IMG/VR virus record: IMGVR_UViG_3300044797_000008
Coordinates: 1 to 27,659 of that record
DNA from: a virus
DNA: 27,659 nt
Direction: 5' to 3' (one strand)
A model generated the notes under the pieces. It was not told where the DNA came from, did not search any database, and was given only the letters and a program-made list of their open reading frames with translations. Shown one piece after another: positions 1,628-11,938 of this stretch. Position numbers and translations under genes: made by a program. Numbering within the stretch: position 1 is the first letter of the stretch; each line of letters opens with the position of its first letter.

Positions 1628-1749
1628 AGGAACCATAATTCTAACTTTGGCCAAGCCGTCGGTGGTTTGGCTTGCTTCCATCCTGGGAGCCAGAGGCGAG
1701 AACGGCATTTCCGCTCTCGCCTCTTTTCAAGTCGAATGGAATGAATCGA

Positions 1750-2307
1750 ATGAAACTTAGTGAACTTGTTCAAGACCCTGCCAACGCTAACGCTGGAACC
1801 TTGCGTGGCAAAACTGCTGTAGAGGTCTCCCTCGCTTCCTGTGGAGCGGGTCGCAGTATCGTGACCGACAAGAACGGCGTAATACTGGCGGGAAATAAAA
1901 CAGCGGCAGCGGCTCAACTTGCTGGCTTGAATCAGGAAGTAATCCTCGTAGACAGCGACGGCTCACAACTTGTGGTGGTTCGCCGCACTGACCTCGACGC
2001 CTCAGATACGAAAGCCAAGACTCTGGCGGTCGCTGACAACCGCACCGCTGAAATAGGTTTGGAATGGAACCCCGCAGTGCTCAAAGACCTAAGCACAGTC
2101 TTGAACCTCCAGCCTTATTTCAGCACTGGCGAATTGAAAGAAATCATAGAACCGAATGCGGAAGAAGCAGAAGGCGACAAAGAATTGACCATGAGCAACG
2201 ACCTCACATTTAAGGTCATCGTGGAATGCGCCAGTGAGCAGGAACAGTTTGAACTGCTGACCAAGTTTGAAAAGGACGGCCTCAAATGTGCGGCTTTGAC
2301 TTCGTAG
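1750..2307 (+). CDS. ParB-like (ParB/sulfiredoxin fold) domain protein
   Basis: I place the start at ATG 1750 (MKLSELVQDPANAN), 9 nt after GGA. An ATG at 1741 is in frame but too close to that site. The 185-aa product has the phage ParB-like layout: an N-terminal strand-helix, the core motif GAGRSIVTDKNGVILAGN at about residues 34-51 followed by helix KTAAAAQLAGL, a strand region (EVILVDSDG), and the DNRTAEIGLEW segment common in these proteins. The last 35 residues (FKVIVECASEQEQFELLTKFEKDG) match the short C-terminal tail often seen in phage ParB-like proteins. Such proteins occur beside methylases, nucleases and terminases and may bind or cut DNA. The 3' end overlaps the ABC-GNAT gene by 22 nt, so the two are probably coupled. 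Nuclease activity is not shown by the sequence. Confidence 0.8.
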   Translation: MKLSELVQDPANANAGTLRGKTAVEVSLASCGAGRSIVTDKNGVILAGNKTAAAAQLAGLNQEVILVDSDGSQLVVVRRTDLDASDTKAKTLAVADNRTAEIGLEWNPAVLKDLSTVLNLQPYFSTGELKEIIEPNAEEAEGDKELTMSNDLTFKVIVECASEQEQFELLTKFEKDGLKCAALTS

Positions 2308-3386
2308 TTTCCAGCAAGATCGTAAACAGCCCGAGAGTAAAGCAGTTGGCCTCCATCTTCGATGTCCCGCTGGCTGACAAGTCGGAAATTCACTTCCACG
2401 GCGATTTGCCAATCGAGGGCTTCGATTGGAACGTTGGCTTGATAGTCGGACCCTCTGGCTGCGGCAAGAGTTCCATTCTGTCCCGAGTATTCAGCATTCC
2501 AGAGCCGTTCACCTGGGAAGCGCCGTCCGTAATAGACGATTTTCCTCCCGACTTGTCCATTCAAGCAGTATCGGAAACCTGCCAGAGCGTTGGCTTCAAT
2601 ACCATCCCAGCCTGGATGCGGCCTTACTCGGTTCTCTCCAACGGTGAGAAGTTCCGAGTGGAAATGGCACGCCGACTGCTTTCCCCGACCAGTCCAATCG
2701 TAATGGACGAATTTACCAGCGTGGTAGATCGCCAAGTGGCTCAGATTGGCTGTCACGCCGTCCAGAAATACGTTCGCAGAAATAATCTGAAGTTCGTTGC
2801 CGCCTCTTGTCACTTTGACATTCTCGACTGGCTGCAACCTGACTGGATCTTCGAGCCCAGCACAATGACATTTTCCCGGAGGTCACTTCGGCAACGACCA
2901 CCCATTGACGTTGAAATTCATCGGGTCGGATACGAATACTGGAAGGTATTCGCTCCATTTCACTATCTAACCGCCGACCTCAACAAGTCGGCAAAATGCT
3001 TCGTCCTGTTTGTGAATGAGCAACCGACTTCCTTTGCTGGCATGTTGCATTTTCCCCACGCAAGCGTTCGGGACATAAAACGATGTTCTCGACTGGTGAC
3101 CCTTCCAGATTGGCAGGGTCTTGGCTTGGCAATGACCCTAATAGAGAAATTGGGGGCGGCTTACAAGGCTTGTGGCTATCGTTTGAGAACCTACCCGGCT
3201 CACCCCTCCCTGATCCGCAGTTTCAACAAGTCTCTTCAATGGGGACTGATGAAAAAGCCCGGAGAATACTCGCCCAGGGCAGGAAATACTTCCGAGGTGG
3301 AAGGCTTCGGCGGCAGACCGTGTGCCGTCTTTCAATACAAAGGTTTACCGATGGATGAAGCCATCGCCAAAAGGCTAATCGCATGA
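2286..3386 (+). CDS. ABC-type ATPase fused to GNAT acetyltransferase (COG2401-like)
   Basis: This 366-aa two-domain protein starts at ATG 2286, with AAGGAC 8 nt upstream, inside the end of the ParB-like gene. The N-terminal half is a compact ABC ATPase: Walker A GPSGCGKSS (55-63), a signature-like LSNGE (117-121), Walker B SPIVMDE (136-142) and an H-loop histidine at 176. There are no membrane segments, so it is not a transporter. The C-terminal half (about 205-366) looks like a GNAT fold, with the acetyl-CoA motif PDWQGLGLA at 274-282 and a downstream helix-strand (YKACGYRLRTY, HPSLIRSFNKS). COG2401 describes exactly this fusion, with no assigned function. Mu Mom shows that GNAT-like enzymes can modify phage DNA. 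The link to DNA modification here is inference from context (ParB-like gene upstream, packaging genes downstream). Confidence 0.85.
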   Translation: MCGFDFVVSSKIVNSPRVKQLASIFDVPLADKSEIHFHGDLPIEGFDWNVGLIVGPSGCGKSSILSRVFSIPEPFTWEAPSVIDDFPPDLSIQAVSETCQSVGFNTIPAWMRPYSVLSNGEKFRVEMARRLLSPTSPIVMDEFTSVVDRQVAQIGCHAVQKYVRRNNLKFVAASCHFDILDWLQPDWIFEPSTMTFSRRSLRQRPPIDVEIHRVGYEYWKVFAPFHYLTADLNKSAKCFVLFVNEQPTSFAGMLHFPHASVRDIKRCSRLVTLPDWQGLGLAMTLIEKLGAAYKACGYRLRTYPAHPSLIRSFNKSLQWGLMKKPGEYSPRAGNTSEVEGFGGRPCAVFQYKGLPMDEAIAKRLIA

Positions 3387-3511
3387 CCGAAGAAGATTTG
3401 ATAGAGGCTCGGAAACGAGCACAAGAATACCGCAAGATGGCGGAAGAGGAATGCCCAGACGGTGGTTTTCTATTCGCCGACCTTGGCAAACCACCGAAGG
3501 AAAACCAATGA
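3383..3511 (+). CDS. 42-aa acidic small protein
   Basis: ATG 3383 overlaps the ABC-GNAT stop by 4 nt (ATGA), and its own stop at 3509-3511 overlaps the next start at 3508 in the same way. The 42 residues are charged and helical at the start (TEEDLIEARKRAQEYRKMAEEE) and end with a GGFLFADLGKPPK segment. The double ATGA coupling strongly suggests that it is translated as part of the ABC-GNAT to small terminase transcript. No family is recognised. It may be a small accessory protein to one of its neighbours. Confidence 0.6.
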   Translation: MTEEDLIEARKRAQEYRKMAEEECPDGGFLFADLGKPPKENQ

Positions 3512-3840
3512 CTGCCTTAGCCTGTCCTGACCACTTGGGAGAACTCGCCCGCCTCGAATGGGTTCGGATGTCTGCCGACCTCGGCGAAAAACTAACGACA
3601 GTGGATGCACCTGCCCTGGCTGCGTATTGCGTGGCCTACGGTCGCTGGAAAGAAGCCGAACTCAACATCCAGAAGTATGGAACGGTTATCAGAACGGGGA
3701 AAGGGGAAGATGCCAAACCAACGATCAGTCCGTACATAGCGGTCGCTGAAAAGTCCCTGGAGATAATGAAGCAATGGCTTGTGGAACTCGAATGCACTCC
3801 CAAGGCTCGCTCCTCCCACAAATCAGAAGGCTGGGTATAA
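3508..3840 (+). CDS. terS: Terminase small subunit, P27 family (first copy)
   Basis: I chose ATG 3508 (MTALACPDHLGELARLEWVRM) because it overlaps the preceding stop as ATGA. An in-frame ATG at 3451 would lie inside the 42-aa gene. The 110-aa product fits the P27 (Terminase_4) small subunit: CPDHLGELARLEWVRM, then DAPALAAYCVAYGRWKEAELNIQKYG, then SPYIAVAEKSLEIMKQWLVELECTPKAR near the C-terminus. The family recognises packaging-initiation DNA and delivers it to the large subunit. The upstream basic segment typical of the family is absent, so it is short. It is followed directly by HNH, a known P27-phage pairing. A second, different P27-type protein lies at 5638, so its role relative to that copy is unclear. 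Confidence 0.85.
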   Translation: MTALACPDHLGELARLEWVRMSADLGEKLTTVDAPALAAYCVAYGRWKEAELNIQKYGTVIRTGKGEDAKPTISPYIAVAEKSLEIMKQWLVELECTPKARSSHKSEGWV

Positions 3841-4242
3841 ATGCCAGTGTCGCCTGTGTCCCTGTGCCGTGATTGTAGCAAGCGGGCATTGCAAGGCACT
3901 TCGTATTGCGCCGACCACCAGACCAACAACAATGCGGCGGCGTATAAGAAACTATCAAGTCGATACAGTGCAGCCGACCCTATTAGGAACCTTTACCAGT
4001 GCAAACGATGGATCAAAGGCACAAGAGCGGCGGTGCTCAGGAGAGACCCGCTCTGCCGTATGTGCGGTCATGAAGCCTCGACAGTATGCGACCACCATCC
4101 ACTGACAGCAAGAGAAGTGGTGGCTCAGTTCGGCATCGCCGCCTTCTACGACGTGAACCGTTGCCAAGGTTTGTGTGCTTCCTGCCATTCATCGAAGACG
4201 GCACTGGAAGACAGCACCTTCGCTCACCATTCGTCCTCCTGA
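3841..4242 (+). CDS. HNH endonuclease
   Basis: This 133-aa protein starts at ATG 3841, immediately after the small terminase stop. Two zinc-knuckle-like pairs frame the HNH motif: CRMC at 72-75, DHH at 84-86, a central asparagine at 106 and CASCHSSKT at 112-120. An extra N-terminal cysteine set (CRDC at 9-12, C23) may bind a further metal. HNH proteins beside terminases of HK97-type phages nick or cut DNA at cos sites and are needed for packaging in several systems. Here the position directly after a P27 small subunit fits that role. The large terminase is unusually distant (7879). Confidence 0.88.
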   Translation: MPVSPVSLCRDCSKRALQGTSYCADHQTNNNAAAYKKLSSRYSAADPIRNLYQCKRWIKGTRAAVLRRDPLCRMCGHEASTVCDHHPLTAREVVAQFGIAAFYDVNRCQGLCASCHSSKTALEDSTFAHHSSS

Positions 4243-4662
4243 CAATAACAGGCACCCCTCCACGAAAGAACTAAGCAGCGCCTTGACCAACCTCCTGTAT
4301 TCCCGAATTGGCTGGAGAGGCTAATTAGACGGACACAATTCTCCGTTTCGATACGGGTTCAGGCCACGGGAAGTGTGAAGTAGTTTATCAAGGGTCGTTC
4401 TGATGCCTGGTCACCGATGTCGTTTTGTTAGAAATCAGAACAAGACCACTCTTGCTGGCGTGCCGGACCGGTGTAATCTCACCCCAGCGCAAATCCTCTT
4501 GACCCGCAAACACAAAAGGGATATAAAAGGGGCCTCTTCTTTAGGGCCGAACCTCAAGGGCCGAATCCCAGGATCAACAGCAGGATCACGTACTGTCACG
4601 TGAGCGGAAGCATTATCCGCTCTGGTTTAAGAGCCTGCCTATTCTGACTAACGGAGGCACCA
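4243..4662 (+). promoter_or_regulatory. Intergenic control region of the PKD gene
   Basis: This 420-nt stretch has no convincing gene. The 66-codon ORF at 4403-4603 lacks a ribosome site and has no protein-like pattern. It holds a good sigma70-type promoter (4499-4527), a direct repeat of AGGGCCGAA at 4543-4551 and 4557-4565, and two small inverted repeats in the probable leader RNA: TCACGT/ACGTGA at 4586-4603 and GAGCGGA/TCCGCTC at 4602-4622. A weak hairpin ACGGA/TCCGT lies around 4330-4347. The leader of roughly 130 nt ends with GGAGG before ATG 4663. Confidence 0.6.
4499..4527 (+). promoter_or_regulatory. Sigma70-type promoter for PKD gene
   Basis: TTGACC (4499-4504), a 17-nt spacer and TATAAA (4522-4527). 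Each box differs from the bacterial housekeeping consensus at one position and the spacing is ideal. It lies about 135 nt upstream of the PKD gene, giving that gene an expression route independent of the phage late genes, as is typical of moron genes in prophages. Confidence 0.7.
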
Positions 4663-5298
4663 ATGAAAAAGCACAAAAGAGGATTGGTCGTAGCTAGAGT
4701 TGCCATTTGTGTTGCCAGTGCTGCGATGCTTCTTGCCCAGCCGGGCAACCCGCCAAAATACCCGCCCTGTCCATCAAATGGGAGCTGCAATCAGAGTCTC
4801 GGGAATGATACGCACAATCCGAACACAGCAAACGGTTGTACTGGATGGTGTAGCAACACACCTTTGAAATTTACTCCTGACCCCATTTGGGCTTGTGCAG
4901 GCCAAGCGGTATCCGGCATTAATGTCAGGGTCGATGGGGCGATGGATACCAAAGGCAATGCGGTCGCAAATGGTGGAGGCGCTGTAAATTGGGGTGATGG
5001 AACATCGGAGGACTCCATTTCCATGAATGCGGGTCCCATTCCATTTAATCAGAACTTCACGCACACCTTTTCTGCCGCAGGCACCTACTATCCGTCAGCA
5101 ACGGTTGCACAGCAGTTTGCTTACACAGGCAATGGCTCATGTGGCTATCGATGCCGCTCACAACAAGCAGTGATGGCTATTGTCTACTTGGCCGACTCCC
5201 CGGAATGTGCGACTGGGGTCTTCCAAGCAACTTCAAACTCTGAAAAGCGGAGGGTAAAGGAACTCAAGAAATTCAAGGCTCTGCTAGCTAAACAATGA
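4663..5298 (+). CDS. Secreted PKD-domain protein, probable moron
   Basis: This 211-aa protein starts at ATG 4663 after GGAGG. Residues 1-25 form a signal peptide: basic KKHKRG, a hydrophobic stretch (VAICVASAAMLLA) and probable cleavage near AQP. There is no lipobox. A cysteine-rich segment follows (C36, C42, C59, C63, C78). Then comes a PKD-like immunoglobulin fold with VNWGDGTSE (108-116) and THTFSAAGTYYPSATV (133-148), and a second cysteine group (C160, C164, C182). The C-terminus is basic. The eight cysteines of the mature part suggest disulfides outside the cytoplasm. PKD domains mediate protein or glycan contacts on the cell surface. With its own promoter and long flanks between two small terminases, it looks like a lysogenic-conversion or surface-exclusion gene, but the function is unknown. 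Confidence 0.75.
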   Translation: MKKHKRGLVVARVAICVASAAMLLAQPGNPPKYPPCPSNGSCNQSLGNDTHNPNTANGCTGWCSNTPLKFTPDPIWACAGQAVSGINVRVDGAMDTKGNAVANGGGAVNWGDGTSEDSISMNAGPIPFNQNFTHTFSAAGTYYPSATVAQQFAYTGNGSCGYRCRSQQAVMAIVYLADSPECATGVFQATSNSEKRRVKELKKFKALLAKQ

Positions 5299-5334
5299 GG
5301 AGCAACGGCCCTAGCGAGCCTTTCACCGGGTTGG

Positions 5335-5388
5335 TGTTCTGCGGTTTTCACGTCAACCTCTAGCGGGTTGGCGCACGCTGGCAGAACA
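5335..5388 (+). repeat. Nested inverted repeat downstream of PKD gene
   Basis: TGTTCTGC (5335-5342) is matched by GCAGAACA (5381-5388). Inside them, CAACC and GGTTG form a second stem around TCTAGCG. The pair would fold into an elongated stem with internal loops 37 nt after the PKD stop. No T-tract follows. It could be a terminator-like or processed RNA structure. Confidence 0.35.
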
Positions 5389-5606
5389 TTGCCTCGTGTT
5401 TCGCATTCGTGGGCCAGGGCCCTGAAGAGGCTGACTGAGCGAATGGGTACAAGCGTTAATAACGCCATCCGTGCCCCGCTATTCTGGCAAAACACTCGCC
5501 GTATCCGTGCCCCGTCCGATCTCCTAAGCGCTTTAGATCAAAGAGAGCGTGCGATCGTTTTGCACGGAAAAGCCATAATCGAACCGAATTGAAAACGTGA
5601 ATTGTG

Positions 5607-5626
5607 CACAACTGTGCACAGTTGTG
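5607..5626 (+). promoter_or_regulatory. Perfect 20-bp palindrome before second small terminase
   Basis: The half-site CACAACTGTG is followed directly by its exact reverse complement CACAGTTGTG. As DNA it is a strong operator-like dyad. As RNA it forms an 8-bp stem with a TGCA loop. AAAGGA follows almost immediately and ATG is at 5638, so it would sit at the ribosome site of the second small terminase. It may be a repressor site, an mRNA processing hairpin or a translational control element. Confidence 0.55.
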
Positions 5627-5637
5627 AAAGGACCCTG

Positions 5638-6042
5638 ATGTCAAGACCTCGCATAGCCACAGCCATCCTCGACACCCGAGGAAGTTTTCTTCAGCACCCG
5701 AGCCGTATAAGACCTTACGAACCTGATACCGACCAGCCGTTGGGTGACCCGCCCGCTCGACTGTCACCAGAAGTCCAAGCCATCTGGCGTGAAGTATCCG
5801 CCGAACTTCTTCCAGGCGTCGGCAAGGTATCTGACCGCACTATGTTTGAAGTGCTCTGCCTTCTCATCTTCAAGCTGCGGAACGGAACCCAGAAGATTAT
5901 GGAACTAAACGCAATGGTCAGCCTGTGTGGTCGCTTCGGTATGTCGCCGTCTGACCGTTCCAAGATTGCCGTTGACGCTCCTCCATCCACTGCGTTGACC
6001 CGTTTTATTAACTCCCAACTCCCAAAGAGTTCCGCTAACTAA
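5638..6042 (+). CDS. terS: Terminase small subunit-like protein (second copy)
   Basis: I chose ATG 5638 (MSRPRIATAILDTRGSF) because AAAGGA precedes it and the sequence begins like family members. An in-frame ATG at 5602 lies in the palindrome. The 134-aa product follows the P27-like small subunit pattern: ILDTRGSFLQHPSRI, an acidic-proline linker (PYEPDTDQPLGDPP), RLSPEVQAIWREVSAELLPGVGKVSDRTMFEVL, and near the end MVSLCGRFGMSPSDRSKI. It is clearly different from the copy at 3508 and better preserves the N-terminal part. It is followed by promoter A and the capsid gene rather than by the large terminase. Whether both copies act, or one is adapted to a different role, cannot be told from sequence. 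Confidence 0.8.
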   Translation: MSRPRIATAILDTRGSFLQHPSRIRPYEPDTDQPLGDPPARLSPEVQAIWREVSAELLPGVGKVSDRTMFEVLCLLIFKLRNGTQKIMELNAMVSLCGRFGMSPSDRSKIAVDAPPSTALTRFINSQLPKSSAN

Positions 6043-6047
6043 GAAAA

Positions 6048-6077
6048 CGATAGATTTCCCTCCCTGCGCTAAATAGT
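6048..6077 (+). promoter_or_regulatory. Candidate phage promoter A (CGATAGA-N17-AATAGT)
   Basis: CGATAGA (6048-6054), 17 nt, AATAGT (6072-6077). The second box is embedded in TAAATAGTGAGC, shared with the site at 15293. The spacer ends of both also share CTCC and GCG. The site begins 5 nt after the small terminase stop and lies about 90 nt before the major capsid ATG, a natural position for a strong late promoter. Confidence 0.6.
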
Positions 6078-6165
6078 GAGCCTTCTCCTCTGAGCTAGGC
6101 GCCTGACCATTCGTAGTCCTCTGATTACCCAATGGCACGCACAGCAACACCTACAAGGGATTTCT

Positions 6166-7353
6166 ATGGACGCAACAATCCACAATAGTCGCAAGGCGGA
6201 ACTTCTGACCGCTCTAGAGGGAATGCTCAACAAGGCACAAGATGAAAAGCGTGGACTAAACGCCACCGAGGAAGACAGCTATAAGACGATGGACGCCGAA
6301 GTCAAGATGATTGACCTCAGCCTTACTCGTATGGCTGCTATTGAAAAGGGTAAGACCCAACTATCTTTGCCTACCTCAGACATCTTCGTTCCGACGGAAG
6401 CAAAGAACAAGAACAAACTTAAGCTATCGGCAGAATACAGAGACGCATTCTGGAAGGCAATCCAGACCCGCAACTTTACTAACGCCGCACTTGGCGAAGG
6501 TGGAACTGCCGCAGATGGTAGCTTCCTTGTGCCATCACAGTTCGACCCGGAGATTGTTGCGCTGGCACCGCTCGAAGCGTCTGCCCGTAAACTGTCTCTC
6601 GTTATTCCTACCGAGATGGACATTAAGTTCCCCGTTCAGACAGTTCGTACCGTAGCCGCTGCGAAGGCGGAAACAAACAACTCCGCTACCAACGCATTCG
6701 CTACGAACGTTCCACAGTTCAGCAATGTAACCCTGACGGCTTACATGTCAGGCGACAGTGTTGCCGTGTCCTGGGAACTTCTTCAGGACGTGGGCGCACT
6801 AGCAGCATTCGTTACCGCCGACCTCGACCGAGCCATTTACAACTACGAGGAAAGTATGTTCATCAACGGCACTGGTGTGGGACAGCCTCAAGGCTATCTC
6901 AACGGTGCTCAGGCTGCGAACACGGAAGCCCTAAGCATTGACGGCATCCTTGATCTAATCGCTGCCCTGAAAGAAGCCTATTACGCCAATGCCAGCTTCC
7001 TGGCAAACCGTCAGACGCTAATCAATCTGTACAAAACACAAATCGCCTCCAGTCAGTTCCAGAATTTCGTTACATGGGACGACACAGGCGCATACCGTCT
7101 GCTTGGTTTCCCAGTAGCCTTCTCCTCACAGATGCCGACCTTCGCCGCAAGTCCTTCCACCAGCGGAGCGGTACTGTTCGGAGACTTCCGAGCAGGATGG
7201 GTTATCGGTGATCGTGGTGGTTCTGCCATTCGTGCGAAGGTGCTTGACCAAGTTGCCGCTCTAAACGGTCAGACCATCATCCTCGGATACCGCAGAACAG
7301 ACCAGCGTTGCCTACTCGCCGAGGCCGTACAGGTAATGACCGTCACTGGCTAA
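6166..7353 (+). CDS. HK97-fold major capsid protein
   Basis: This 395-aa protein starts at ATG 6166 after AAGGG. Residues 1-62 are a charged, helical delta-like scaffold region (RKAELLTALEGMLNKAQDEKRG, EEDSYKTMDAEVKMIDLSL). A linker follows, and then the capsid body: EYRDAFWKAI (90-99), the family hallmark GGTAADGSFLVPSQF (112-126), a long beta-rich P/A domain with FINGTGVGQPQGYLNGAQ, NRQTLINLYKT, and the C-terminal FGDFRAGWVIGDRGG and TIILGYRRTDQRCLLAEAVQVMTV. The delta region is probably removed by the ClpP-like protease encoded at 11198. The gene is oddly placed upstream of large terminase, portal and protease, whereas the usual HK97 order puts it after the protease. It follows candidate promoter A directly. 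Confidence 0.95.
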   Translation: MDATIHNSRKAELLTALEGMLNKAQDEKRGLNATEEDSYKTMDAEVKMIDLSLTRMAAIEKGKTQLSLPTSDIFVPTEAKNKNKLKLSAEYRDAFWKAIQTRNFTNAALGEGGTAADGSFLVPSQFDPEIVALAPLEASARKLSLVIPTEMDIKFPVQTVRTVAAAKAETNNSATNAFATNVPQFSNVTLTAYMSGDSVAVSWELLQDVGALAAFVTADLDRAIYNYEESMFINGTGVGQPQGYLNGAQAANTEALSIDGILDLIAALKEAYYANASFLANRQTLINLYKTQIASSQFQNFVTWDDTGAYRLLGFPVAFSSQMPTFAASPSTSGAVLFGDFRAGWVIGDRGGSAIRAKVLDQVAALNGQTIILGYRRTDQRCLLAEAVQVMTVTG

Positions 7354-7420
7354 AACAGTTATGCGCCTGTCGTTCGCAAGAGCCGTGGGCGCACCAATTA
7401 AATCTTAGGAGAACTCACCC

Positions 7421-7570
7421 ATGTCAAATCTAAACGAGCACGACTTTCCATTTCCACACACGGAGAAAAAGATACCTGACGAGAAGCACCCAGCGCCAGT
7501 ATTCGACCCTCCAGAAACAAACCCGAAGCCGAAGGCTCCTGAAAGGAAGCCCGACCACTACGGCGTGTAA
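7421..7570 (+). CDS. 49-aa proline-rich small protein after capsid gene
   Basis: ATG 7421 follows TAGGAGA with good spacing. The 49 residues are hydrophilic and rich in Pro, Lys, Glu and His (begins MSNLNEHDFPFPHTEKK, ends ERKPDHYGV), so the protein is probably unstructured. It lies between the capsid stop and a hairpin at 7596-7628, so it should be expressed at capsid level. It could be a capsid-associated, scaffold or decoration peptide, but there is no family evidence. Confidence 0.6.
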   Translation: MSNLNEHDFPFPHTEKKIPDEKHPAPVFDPPETNPKPKAPERKPDHYGV

Positions 7571-7595
7571 CGACTTCATACAGTAGCTACTCCAC

Positions 7596-7628
7596 TAGGG
7601 GACGGACGGCGCAAACCGTCCTCCCCTA
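7596..7628 (+). terminator. Strong hairpin closing the capsid segment
   Basis: TAGGGGA, a bulged C, then GGACGG (7596-7609) pair with CCGTCC and TCCCCTA (7616-7628) around a 6-nt loop: 13 base pairs with one bulge, mostly G-C. Only a weak T-rich stretch follows (TCTCTGTTTA), so it may be a partial terminator or attenuator. Its place between the capsid segment and the large terminase segment would lower packaging-gene expression relative to capsid. Confidence 0.6.
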
Positions 7629-7645
7629 TCTCTGTTTAGGAACAA

Positions 7646-7888
7646 ATGATTATCACCGTCTCAATCATTATTCAGTACGAACCAAACGAGTCCGAAACTC
7701 TCGCCCAAAACATTCGATGCTCACTCGGCGAGGAGTTCATAAACGAGGCTCGCCGAATAGCCCCTAAGGCAGTGATAGAGGCAGTCACCAGCGTGGCTCC
7801 TGACGGTACTTATTCGTATCTGGAGAACCAAGACACCAGACCAACGAACAACACAAGACAGAAAGTGTACGGAACACCTTGTCGATAG
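7646..7888 (+). CDS. 80-aa hypothetical protein before large terminase
   Basis: ATG 7646 lies 5 nt after AGGA. The protein opens with a beta-like hydrophobic stretch (IITVSIIIQY), then has a helical middle (AQNIRCSLGEEFINEARRIAPKAVIEAVTSV) and a polar tail. It is not a clear membrane or signal segment. Its end overlaps the TTG start of the large terminase by 10 nt, so the two are probably coupled. No family is recognised. Confidence 0.55.
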   Translation: MIITVSIIIQYEPNESETLAQNIRCSLGEEFINEARRIAPKAVIEAVTSVAPDGTYSYLENQDTRPTNNTRQKVYGTPCR

Positions 7889-9606
7889 CGGAACAATTCA
7901 TTTCGGACGTGTTAAGCGGGAAGCAAGTCGCTGGTCCTTACATCGTGAAGGCTTGCCAGCGTCATGTATCCGACTTGGAGACTGCTGCCTCACGAGGTTT
8001 ATATTTTGACGCCGACGCTGGCGTGAGAGTTGCGGAGTTCATAGAAACGTTTTGCACACCGCCCAATCAGACCGATCCAATGATCTTGATGCCGTGGGAG
8101 CACGCCCTTTCATACATCTCCCACGGTTGGAAGAGAGATGACGGCACACGCAGGTTCCGCCGTATCTATCTTGAAGTGGCAAAGAAGAATGGCAAGACCG
8201 CATTCGCTGCTGCCCTTGCCCTTTACCACCTCGTTGCCGACGGAGAACTATCCGCCCGAGTGTTTATCAGTGCCACTACCAGAAAGCAATCCGCCATCTG
8301 TTTCAAGGAAGCCGTGGCGATGCGGGAGCGTAATCCCGATCTGAAGGCTGCCATTCAACAGTCAGGCATCGAACCTGTTCTGGCTCTCTACATTCCTGGC
8401 ACAGGATCTCGACTGAGCATGATGTCCAGAGACGCCGCATCCGAGGACGGTGCCCTTGTCAGTTGCGCCGTAATGGATGAACTCCACCGCTGGACGGCTG
8501 GCTCCAATCTTTACTCCGTGCTTCGATACGGCGGCAGAACACGGCCGCAGCCAATGATTATCGAGACCACCACCGCTGGCTCCAGTGCTGGCGGAACCTC
8601 TCTCTGCTGGGCAGAGCGTAGTTACGGAACAAAAGTACTGGACGGGCATCTCCAGGACGATGAGTTCGCCCCTTTCATTTTCAGCATGGCGGATAAAGAC
8701 GATTGGAAAGACCCAGCCAACTGGATCAAGTCCAATCCCTCCCTCGGCCACTTGTTCCCTCTGGAGACAATCCAGAAAGAAATAGCCGAAGCAATGGGCA
8801 AGCCCACCAGCATGGGAGAGGCAAAGCGTTTCGCTTTGAACATGTGGAGTAGCGACGCCGAAAACCCAGCCATCGAACTGTCGAAGTGGGACGCCTGCTG
8901 CCGTGAGGACATCGCCAACCATCCAGACCCGAAGCGACTCAGAGCCGAAACGATAGCAGAGTTGAGAGGCAGACCATGCTTCGGTGCTCTCGACTTGGCA
9001 CCCAAGTTGGATACCTCGGCACTGGTGCTGCTATTCCCGCCGCTAAAGACAACTGAAAGATGGCGGACACTCGAATACTTCTGGTGCCCGAAGGACAACA
9101 TAGAAGGCAGGGTCAAGCGTGACCACGTTCCTTACGACCGCTGGGCAGACGATGGCTTTATCACCACCACGGACGGCAACCTGACCGATGTTCGGTTCAT
9201 AGCGGAACAAATCACCGAGATTAACAAACTGTTCGACCTGAAGGAACTCGCCTACGACAGCGCATGGAGTTCGGAGTTAATCAGAATGCTTGGTGAGAGT
9301 GGCTTCCCTATGCAGAAGTTCGTTGCCTTCCCTCAGACGCCAGTAAAGATGAACGGCCCTTGCTTGGAGTTCATGCGTAAAACATTGCGGAAGGAATTTG
9401 CCCACGACTGTAATCCGATTATGCGGTGGCAAGTCTCCAATCTTCGATGGAACACACAGAAGGGCACGAACTTTATAAAGCCAGATCGTGATAGCAAAAG
9501 GGAAAAGATAGACGGGTGTGCCTCTCTAATCATGGCACTCGGGCGTGCTCTCGACCCAGAAAATGTAATCAAGCCTCGACCATCGTTCTTCTGTGTCAGT
9601 GCTTAA
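7879..9606 (+). CDS. terL: Terminase large subunit (Terminase_1 family)
   Basis: This 575-aa protein starts with TTG at 7879 (MSIAEQFISDVLSGK). Its length and N-terminus suit the family, and no better start exists. ATPase part: Walker A-like EVAKKNGKT (99-107), Walker B SCAVMDE (195-201) and the coupling motif ETTTAG (229-234). Nuclease part: acidic residues in GALDLAPKLD (D372), LAYDSAW (D460) and KIDGCASLIMA (D545), the usual RNase H-like triad positions. It pumps DNA into the prohead and cuts the concatemer. It is normally next to the small subunit, but here it is separated from both copies by the capsid gene. The TTG start and overlap with the 80-aa gene may keep its expression low. Confidence 0.95.
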   Translation: MSIAEQFISDVLSGKQVAGPYIVKACQRHVSDLETAASRGLYFDADAGVRVAEFIETFCTPPNQTDPMILMPWEHALSYISHGWKRDDGTRRFRRIYLEVAKKNGKTAFAAALALYHLVADGELSARVFISATTRKQSAICFKEAVAMRERNPDLKAAIQQSGIEPVLALYIPGTGSRLSMMSRDAASEDGALVSCAVMDELHRWTAGSNLYSVLRYGGRTRPQPMIIETTTAGSSAGGTSLCWAERSYGTKVLDGHLQDDEFAPFIFSMADKDDWKDPANWIKSNPSLGHLFPLETIQKEIAEAMGKPTSMGEAKRFALNMWSSDAENPAIELSKWDACCREDIANHPDPKRLRAETIAELRGRPCFGALDLAPKLDTSALVLLFPPLKTTERWRTLEYFWCPKDNIEGRVKRDHVPYDRWADDGFITTTDGNLTDVRFIAEQITEINKLFDLKELAYDSAWSSELIRMLGESGFPMQKFVAFPQTPVKMNGPCLEFMRKTLRKEFAHDCNPIMRWQVSNLRWNTQKGTNFIKPDRDSKREKIDGCASLIMALGRALDPENVIKPRPSFFCVSA

Positions 9607-9614
9607 AGGAAATA

Positions 9615-11198
9615 ATGTCACGACTAACAATACTTGATTTGTCAGAAGCGAAGGCCGCTATCAAGATGGACAGCACACTGGCAAATCCGTCGGCTGATTT
9701 CGTGCAGGCGTTGCTTGGGTTTCCAACCGCTGCTGGCAAGCCAGTCACTAAGGACACCGCTATTCGTGTGGCTTCATTTCTTGCGGGTGTAAAAGTTCTG
9801 GCGTCCGACATCGCAAAGATGCCGCTTCTCCTTCGCTCTCGAACTGTGGACGGCGAAGGGCGTGTGAGAACACAGCCAGCAATCGCCAATCCGCTTTATA
9901 CGCTATTGAAGGACTGCCCGAACCAGTGGCAGACCTCGTATCAAATGCGCTGGTTTCTGGCCTCGCAGCTAATCATGGCATCGAATTGTTTCTGCCAGAT
10001 TATCCGTGACCAGACAGGGAAGATTATCGCTCTCAATCCTCTGGATGCGTGGAACATGACGCAGAAGTGGGACTTGAGCGGCTCCAAGCCGAGAGCGTTC
10101 TGGGTGTATTCCGACCTGTTCGGCAACATGCGGGAGTTTCAGCAGTCGGAACTATGGCACACAACCTCAACCAATCTTCAAGGCAACGGCATGAACGGTG
10201 CCGCTATTGTTGCTCTGGCGAAGGAAGCTCTTAGTCTTTTGCTGGCTCAGGAAGAGGTTGCTGGAAGAAACTTCGCTAACGGTCTGAGCATGGGCGGGTT
10301 CCTGACCTTACCACCAGACACGCAGGTGACCGAACCAGAAGCACAGAACATTGTTGACACGCTGAAAAAGAATTTCTCTGGTTCACAGAACGCTGCCAAG
10401 TTCTCACTTCTCCCAGGCGGTGTCAAGTTCGAGAAAATGGCTTTCAACGCACAAGAAAGCCAGTTCCTTGAAAGTCGCAAGTGGGATGCCGAGGAAGTCA
10501 CTCGCCTTCTTGGTGGTGCTCCGCTGCTAGTCAAGTTGGGAATGGGTCAACAGAGTTCCACCTACGCCAGTTCCAGTGCTTTCCTTGAGGATTATTTCCA
10601 GACTTCGCTGATGCCTCATTGCGTAGCACTAGAGCAGAGCATTACCCGTGACCTCATTCTGCCGAAAGACAGAGCGACAGTCTACGCCAAGCACGACAGC
10701 AATCCAATTCTCCGTGGTTCGCTTCGTGAGCGTGCCGAAACCTACGAAATACAAATCAGGTCTGGTCAGATGTCGCCCAACGAGGTGCGAGTTCTCGAAG
10801 ATCAAGACACCGTGGAAGGTCTGGATTGGTATTGTCTGCCAGCGAACACGGCAGTATTCAACGATGGCGAAATCTACATACCCGGCCAGGATGTTCTGAG
10901 TGATGACGGAAAGTCTATTGACCCAAAGAATACACCTACCGCACCAGACGCCGACCCAAACTCCACTTCGGACGCCACACCTAAGACAACTGCTCGGCTC
11001 CTGACAATCGCAAACTCCCTCGCAGAGCGAGTGGAAAGAAAAGAAGCAAAGGGAACGATAGACGCCAAGTTTATCAGTGAAGTTCTGGCGTGTTCTCTGA
11101 CCGACGCCGAAGCATACATCCAGGGTCGCAAAGACAAATCCATTTCAGATTCCGACGCCCACGCCGTGCTCGTAACACTGGCAACAAAGGAAAACTAA
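9615..11198 (+). CDS. Portal protein, HK97 type
   Basis: I place the start at ATG 9615, behind AAGGAAAT and 9 nt after the terminase stop. The longer open frame reaches back into the terminase gene and is not needed. The 527-aa product has the HK97 portal layout: an N-terminal region with SFLAGVKVLASDIAKMPLLL, a conserved DCPNQWQTSYQMRWFLASQLIMASNCFCQIIRD segment, LNPLDAWNMTQKWD, an FANGLSMGGFLTLP segment, and MAFNAQESQFLESRKWDAEEVTRLLGGAPLLV, a strong family signature. The C-terminal 100 residues are polar with a linker (TPTAPDADPNSTSDATPK). The protein forms the dodecameric ring at the capsid vertex through which DNA passes. It overlaps the protease start by one base (TAATG). Confidence 0.93.
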   Translation: MSRLTILDLSEAKAAIKMDSTLANPSADFVQALLGFPTAAGKPVTKDTAIRVASFLAGVKVLASDIAKMPLLLRSRTVDGEGRVRTQPAIANPLYTLLKDCPNQWQTSYQMRWFLASQLIMASNCFCQIIRDQTGKIIALNPLDAWNMTQKWDLSGSKPRAFWVYSDLFGNMREFQQSELWHTTSTNLQGNGMNGAAIVALAKEALSLLLAQEEVAGRNFANGLSMGGFLTLPPDTQVTEPEAQNIVDTLKKNFSGSQNAAKFSLLPGGVKFEKMAFNAQESQFLESRKWDAEEVTRLLGGAPLLVKLGMGQQSSTYASSSAFLEDYFQTSLMPHCVALEQSITRDLILPKDRATVYAKHDSNPILRGSLRERAETYEIQIRSGQMSPNEVRVLEDQDTVEGLDWYCLPANTAVFNDGEIYIPGQDVLSDDGKSIDPKNTPTAPDADPNSTSDATPKTTARLLTIANSLAERVERKEAKGTIDAKFISEVLACSLTDAEAYIQGRKDKSISDSDAHAVLVTLATKEN

Positions 11199-11938
11199 TG
11201 AACAAAGAATTTTCACTTCGCACGATGACCGCACCTCTCGCTTTCACGGCAAAGGCTTCGTCAAGAGGAACCGCCGACACGGTTCTCACTCTCGAACTTT
11301 ACGATGTCATCGGTGCCGACCTGTTCTCCGAGGGTATCACTGGGAAGCTGGTGTCCGAGGCTATCACTGAGGCTGGCGACTTCAGTTCCATAGCGTTGCG
11401 GCTCAATAGTCCTGGCGGTGATTTATTCGAGGGCGTGACTATTTACAACCTCATAAAGTCGCAAGGCAAGCCCGTAAACGTCATTGTGGACGGTCTGGCT
11501 GCCTCTGCTGCCTCTCTCATTGCGATGGCAGGAGACACCTGCACAATGAGCGACGGTTCCTGCATGATGGTTCACAATGCCGCTGGTCTGGCGATGGGAT
11601 ACGCTGCCGACCTTCGCAAAATGGCAGACGTTCTGGATACGGTCACTGGTTCTGCTGCGGACATTTATGTAGCCCGCACGGGCGTAGACAAAACCAAAGT
11701 GCTGGCGCTGATGGCAGCGGAAACGTGGATGACACCAGCCGAAGCCGTCGCTGCTCACTTCGCAACCGCAGTCTCCGAAGATAAAGCCATTTCCAATTCA
11801 TTCAACCTGTCGGTATTCGAGCACACTCCTGCGGCTCTGAAAGCCAAGCCGGAGGAAGTGAAAGAACCAGAACAGCCGAATACGGAATACCTAATCGACA
11901 TTCTCCGAAAGAAACTCGAACTGGCAAAGAGGAAATAA
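11198..11938 (+). CDS. ClpP-like prohead maturation protease
   Basis: This 246-aa protein starts at ATG 11198, sharing its A with the portal stop, with AAGGA upstream. It shows ClpP/S14 features: LRLNSPGGDLFEG (67-79, oxyanion region), the nucleophile serine in GLAASAAS (S103), the histidine in MMVHNAAG (H126), and DIYVARTGV (155-163), which probably holds the acidic third residue. The C-terminus has a charged helix (EYLIDILRKKLELAKRK). In HK97-like phages this enzyme removes the capsid delta region. Here it lies downstream of the capsid gene, separated by terminase and portal. Confidence 0.9.
   Translation: MNKEFSLRTMTAPLAFTAKASSRGTADTVLTLELYDVIGADLFSEGITGKLVSEAITEAGDFSSIALRLNSPGGDLFEGVTIYNLIKSQGKPVNVIVDGLAASAASLIAMAGDTCTMSDGSCMMVHNAAGLAMGYAADLRKMADVLDTVTGSAADIYVARTGVDKTKVLALMAAETWMTPAEAVAAHFATAVSEDKAISNSFNLSVFEHTPAALKAKPEEVKEPEQPNTEYLIDILRKKLELAKRK

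Follow-up and report, generated by a model that had tools for sequence, protein, structure and literature searches.

What does an ABC ATPase fused to a GNAT acetyltransferase do in a phage, and what does the ParB-like protein encoded by the overlapping gene contribute? The question is raised by a 27,659-base viral record of IMG/VR, taken whole and hereafter called the window, in which the two genes are followed by genes for a small terminase (PF05119, 1.9e-18) and an HNH protein (phrog_144, 2e-14). A sequence-only reading of this DNA had proposed a coupled system that marks, senses or licenses DNA for packaging, or protects it from host restriction. Our analysis indicates a real, conserved cassette that is probably DNA-modifying: the pair probably attaches a small chemical group to phage DNA, hiding it from bacterial defences. 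The features of the pair are as follows.

1750..2307, plus strand: ParB-like protein, ATG at 1750, stop at 2307, 185 aa; head (about residues 1-140) variable, tail (residues 152-185) conserved
2203..2304, plus strand: conserved C-terminal tail of the ParB-like partner, 34 residues, YRVIVECxDExxQxELLxxFExEGLKCxxLIS
2286..2307, plus strand: overlap of the ParB-like and ABC-GNAT ORFs, 22 nt, the commonest spacing in the family
2286..3386, plus strand: ABC ATPase-GNAT fusion (ABC-GNAT), ATG at 2286, stop at 3386, 366 aa; phrog_11143, E 1.9e-98; model pLDDT 87.6
2448..2471, plus strand: Walker A, residues 55-62, GPSGCGKS; G55, S57, G58, G60 and K61 invariant in 40 relatives
2634..2648, plus strand: ABC signature LSNGE, residues 117-121; L117, S118 and G120 invariant in 40 relatives
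2697..2711, plus strand: Walker B with the catalytic glutamate, residues 138-142; D141 and E142 invariant in 40 relatives
2811..2813, plus strand: H-loop His176, invariant in 40 relatives
2904..3347, plus strand: GNAT domain, residues 207-354; structure matches 1y9k and RimI 5isv
2961..2966, plus strand: His226-Tyr227, candidate active-site pair, invariant in 40 relatives
3090..3128, plus strand: GNAT motif A, residues 269-281 (RLVTLPDWQGLGL); R269, V271, P274, D275, Q277 and G278 invariant in 40 relatives

The 22-nt overlap and the intact motifs had been recognised by the sequence-only reading, and both were borne out by the ORF positions and by the invariance of the key residues. The phrog_11143 profile spans residues 8-322 of ABC-GNAT and covers both domains; in Pfam, ABC_tran scored above its cut-off and Acetyltransf_7 below it (E 3e-4). 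In the AlphaFold model, an ABC nucleotide-binding domain is followed by a GNAT fold. The ABC half matched 1l2t (MJ0796; Z 14.8, rmsd 2.8, 177 aligned), and the GNAT half matched 1y9k (Z 14.5, rmsd 2.6, 127 aligned) and RimI 5isv (Z 13.8, rmsd 3.8, 134 aligned). The protein thus belongs to the ABC superfamily, by its Walker A, LSxG, Walker B DE, H-loop and fold, and also to the GNAT superfamily. No linked membrane permease, as an ABC transporter would have, was found among the window neighbours, which are the ParB-like, terminase, HNH and virion genes. The GNAT acyl-CoA loop QGLGL is present, with its first two residues fixed in the relatives. Judged from conservation, the active site should be sought first at His226-Tyr227 and in motif A; the Mom family likewise has an invariant HY after the first helix.

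The partner protein matched phrog_620 (E 3.8e-16) and did not reach the Pfam ParB_N cut-off. The best structural neighbours of its head were all ParB, Noc, KorB or sulfiredoxin proteins, which places the head in the ParB/Srx group, though with modest structural resemblance (top match 7bnr, Z only 7.1, rmsd 3.4, 74 aligned). A further match of the head (E 1e-12) was to the N-terminal part of the DNA methyltransferase family phrog_498. Among relatives, mean pairwise identity was 46% in the last 34 residues and 31% in the head, and the heads span quite different ParB types, one of them (L038) with a possible helix-turn-helix.

The pair recurs widely. Relatives were detectable in 72 named phage records and at 239 places in bacterial genome contigs. 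A search with the ABC-GNAT protein gave 52 viral relatives. Sequence upstream of the gene is available for 49, and a ParB-like gene lies within about 320 nt in 45 of these 49 loci, within 3 kb in 2 more and in neither range in 2; the conservation in other phages that a neighbourhood survey was to establish is thereby confirmed. When every locus with 400 nt or more of upstream sequence is counted, 105/130 have a ParB-like neighbour, a count that includes near-duplicates and the window itself twice. The 22-nt overlap is exact in 35 loci, ranging from Pseudoalteromonas and Streptococcus phages through Planctomycetes and Endozoicomonas, and the next commonest spacing is -4 nt (17 loci). Because phages of unrelated hosts share both the pair and the overlap, the arrangement is not a product of chance. 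DNA similarity between the window and a close relative (L006) is confined to 1749-3487 (74%), whereas their TerL protein fragments are 31-39% alike, which indicates that the two genes travel as a cassette. Divided forms were also observed. E. coli phage PhiR41_1 (L059, 3656-6553) and Rhizobium phage RHEph10 (L060, 2990-7101) carry the parts as separate genes: one for the ABC protein, two for ParB-like proteins and one for a stand-alone GNAT (phrog_886, wrongly named an ABC transporter subunit). In phages of Firmicutes, the ABC and GNAT matches are separate pieces, annotated as two genes; in L004 (6001-7070) they lie in overlapping frames.

A second, Mu-like branch of ABC-GNAT (tree support 99; 34-44% identical to the window's branch) shows which part of the partner is constant. 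The ParB head is nearly always missing there, and a small tail-only ORF ends 4 nt inside ABC-GNAT. These small proteins form phrog_28816, to which the ParB tails are homologous (hhalign prob 97.7, E 1.7e-12), so that a tail-bearing neighbour accompanies ABC-GNAT in nearly all relatives. As the tail is kept in both branches and the head is lost in one, the constant companion of ABC-GNAT is the tail rather than the ParB head; we infer that the tail is a docking module for ABC-GNAT, to which the head would add targeting.

The gene before the tail in this branch is usually Com (PF10122), and 9/9 tested ORFs passed the Pfam cut-off. Com is the zinc-ribbon "control of modification" protein of Mu, which switches on translation of Mom. 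It lies directly upstream in 8/10 genomes chosen for the second branch, one Com each, against a background of 3/369 genomes sampled from one class (Fisher p 7e-13). The same Com/tail/ABC-GNAT arrangement follows the tail-fibre genes of Komp_PAO1_1, a free phage that encodes Mu Gam and a protein for DNA transposition. We also collected Com loci without regard to ABC-GNAT, drawing on one class and two families of bacteria; the seed genomes were set aside, as were a few Com matches that were weak or broken. In these 31 independent loci, the gene after Com was a DNA methyltransferase in 26 (15 D12, 7 C5 and 4 N6/N4, three unrelated kinds), tail plus ABC-GNAT in 3 and neither in 2; in Mu itself it is Mom. 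The post-Com position is therefore mainly a place for DNA-modifying enzymes; as one of its occupants, ABC-GNAT fills a DNA-modification slot. This evidence comes from the sister branch without the ParB head and not from the window's own branch, in which no Com was found upstream.

A direct exchange with Mom was observed in two Porphyromonas phages, 008a and 014a, whose 3.1-kb upstream flanks are 86% identical and whose right ends match. In the slot between, one carries Mom (PF25680, 6e-56) and the other tail, ABC-GNAT and a formyltransferase. The ParB-like side leads to the same place. Such genes overlap or adjoin Mom genes (Appa and phiEf11, with near-adjacency in Martha): the overlap is seen in Microbacterium phages, and the side-by-side placement in Enterococcus phiEf11. 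In Aphanizomenon phage CL131, the overlap is with the gene for a C5 methyltransferase. Both halves of the pair thus point independently to DNA modification, and of the proposals made by the sequence-only reading, modification with protection from restriction is the one that genomic context supports well. The closest named ParB relative, considered as a possible methylase fusion, proved to be a 182-aa ParB-like ORF (named "DNA methylase") with a separate C5 methyltransferase gene after it, which it overlaps. A kinship between the GNAT domain and Mom, also suggested earlier, found no support at the sequence level: hhalign gave a probability of 1.6%, and a Pfam scan with E up to 1 found no PF25680 match in ABC-GNAT. 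The Mom structure 8bv8 was not among the structure matches listed for the whole model, where ABC domains took the places. Mom of Mu and ABC-GNAT share the GNAT superfamily, the genomic slot in related phages and, in some cases, a ParB-like neighbour; unlike ABC-GNAT, Mom has neither an ABC domain nor a tail.

In some 23 distinct loci, the gene after ABC-GNAT, at a spacing of -12 to about +100 nt, encodes a formyltransferase (PF00551, PurN-like, phrog_9240). This gene overlaps or abuts ABC-GNAT through most of the Com/tail-only branch (L142, 9077-9694; L222, 7110-7583; L120, L123, L139 and others) and did not turn up in the branch of the window. PurN acts by formylating a glycyl amine, so a two-step, acyl-then-formyl mark is conceivable in the Mu-like branch.

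We consider it likely that the pair is a phage DNA-modification cassette, in which an ABC-GNAT enzyme and a ParB-like targeting partner acylate bases against restriction. In this scheme, the variable ParB/Srx head would bind DNA, and probably a nucleotide too, while the conserved tail would dock on ABC-GNAT, the enzyme, whose ATP-driven ABC dimer would engage DNA. Head and dimer together would hold the DNA, with ATP driving closing or base exposure, and the GNAT domain would move an acyl group from acyl-CoA onto the base, probably onto an exocyclic amine. The resulting mark would guard phage DNA against host restriction, just as Mom protects Mu. A more elaborate version, which we put forward tentatively as a possibility, is a multi-part, ATP-driven acylation system with ABC-GNAT as engine and writer, the tail as obligate adaptor, exchangeable ParB heads for targeting and, in the Mu-like branch, tailoring by the formyltransferase, giving a hypermodified base that may be, for example, acylated and then N-formylated.

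Other activities were weighed against this scheme. A ParB head beside an ABC ATPase recalls ParB-SMC, and the pair stands just before the small terminase gene in the window and its close relatives (the comparison, made with a narrow terminase profile, covers close relatives only). The two proteins might accordingly load onto phage DNA and aid terminase, as an SMC-like device for handling DNA or licensing its packaging, with the GNAT domain as regulator. We regard this as very unlikely, since the Mu-like branch lacks the ParB head and carries ABC-GNAT at the far genome end, away from the packaging genes, the pair moves like a cassette, and the ABC-GNAT model contains no long coiled coil; the proposed sensing or licensing of DNA for packaging is unsupported on the same grounds of position and mobility. 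The surroundings in the window have features of their own. The last 4 nt of ABC-GNAT are shared with a 42-aa ORF at 3383-3511 (MTEEDLIEARKRAQEYRKMAEEECPDGGFLFADLGKPPKENQ), which has no family match and precedes the small terminase gene. The order of the head genes over 3508-11938 is unusual. Small terminase, HNH and a PKD-like secreted protein (4663-5298) are followed by another ORF of small-terminase type (5602-6042). The gene for the major capsid protein (6166-7353) comes next, ahead of those for large terminase (7879), portal (9516) and protease (11090), and downstream of the protease there is none for a capsid. In the relative L007, small and large terminase genes come directly after ABC-GNAT, and a capsid-like match lies further on.

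A different substrate could also be imagined. TmcA/NAT10 is an RNA cytidine acetyltransferase in which a helicase-type ATPase is coupled to a GNAT domain acting on a nucleobase. The window's protein is alike in principle, the ATPase-plus-GNAT architecture being common to both in concept, and NAT10 appeared among the insignificant profile matches (E 0.47), so the target might be RNA or a nucleotide (tRNA or a free nucleotide) instead of DNA. We find this quite unlikely: TmcA/NAT10 differs in its helicase-type ATPase and RNA substrate and has no significant sequence match to ABC-GNAT, and the Com slot is otherwise occupied by DNA-modifying enzymes. It is likewise unlikely that the cassette serves host takeover, with the GNAT domain acetylating a host protein, the ABC domain as a regulatory switch and the ParB-like protein as a targeting adaptor. 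The nearest solved folds of the GNAT domain are indeed protein or small-molecule acetyltransferases (RimI, IAA-acetyltransferase-like and glyphosate acetyltransferase), and the phage acetyltransferase Rac, which acts on RNA polymerase, provides a precedent (PMC7824862). Acetylation of a host protein, however, would leave unexplained both the replacement of Mom and methyltransferases behind Com and the ParB partner type common to Mom and methyltransferase genes.

Modification of phage DNA by this enzyme type has already been predicted. A jumbo-phage survey (PMC7824862) reports that, according to a prediction by Iyer et al. 2013, a GNAT coupled to an ABC ATPase modifies a DNA base with an acyl group in an uncharacterised way, and it names Tenacibaculum phage pT24. 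A direct relative of ABC-GNAT is encoded by pT24 (35% identity over 84%), and the predicted family (phrog_11143), as the survey describes it, has the same fusion as the window. The base-acylating role is thus already published as a prediction, and the central idea is not new. The earlier statement that such fusions have no assigned function thus holds only in part: phrog_11143 is labelled "unknown function", but a role in DNA modification has been predicted in print. The window's member differs from that of pT24, which has no ParB-like gene next door, in having a ParB-like partner with a conserved tail, and we regard the cassette as a ParB-tail variant of the predicted kind; Iyer et al. 2013 may already have mentioned ParB. 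Phage ParB-like proteins encoded beside, or fused to, DNA methyltransferases (phrog_498, phrog_620) resemble the window's ParB head, whereas in the window the partner enzyme is ABC-GNAT and the ParB-like protein ends in a dedicated tail. A literature search covering a minority of subscription journals found no paper on the tail, the Com slot, the Mom swap or the formyltransferase, none on COG2401 or naming a link between Com and ABC-GNAT, and no experimental test of any family member.

Members of this family are currently annotated as "ABC siderophore transporter" or "hypothetical", and a 42-aa tail-only protein of a Porphyromonas phage (L222, 5855-5983) as "acr candidate", although its context suggests a DNA-modification partner instead. 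If the DNA-marking role is true, the family would give phages a shield against restriction that is under-recognised and probably new in its chemistry, to which the Com/Mom swap, as two closely related phages differing in the slot, offers a clean experimental entry.
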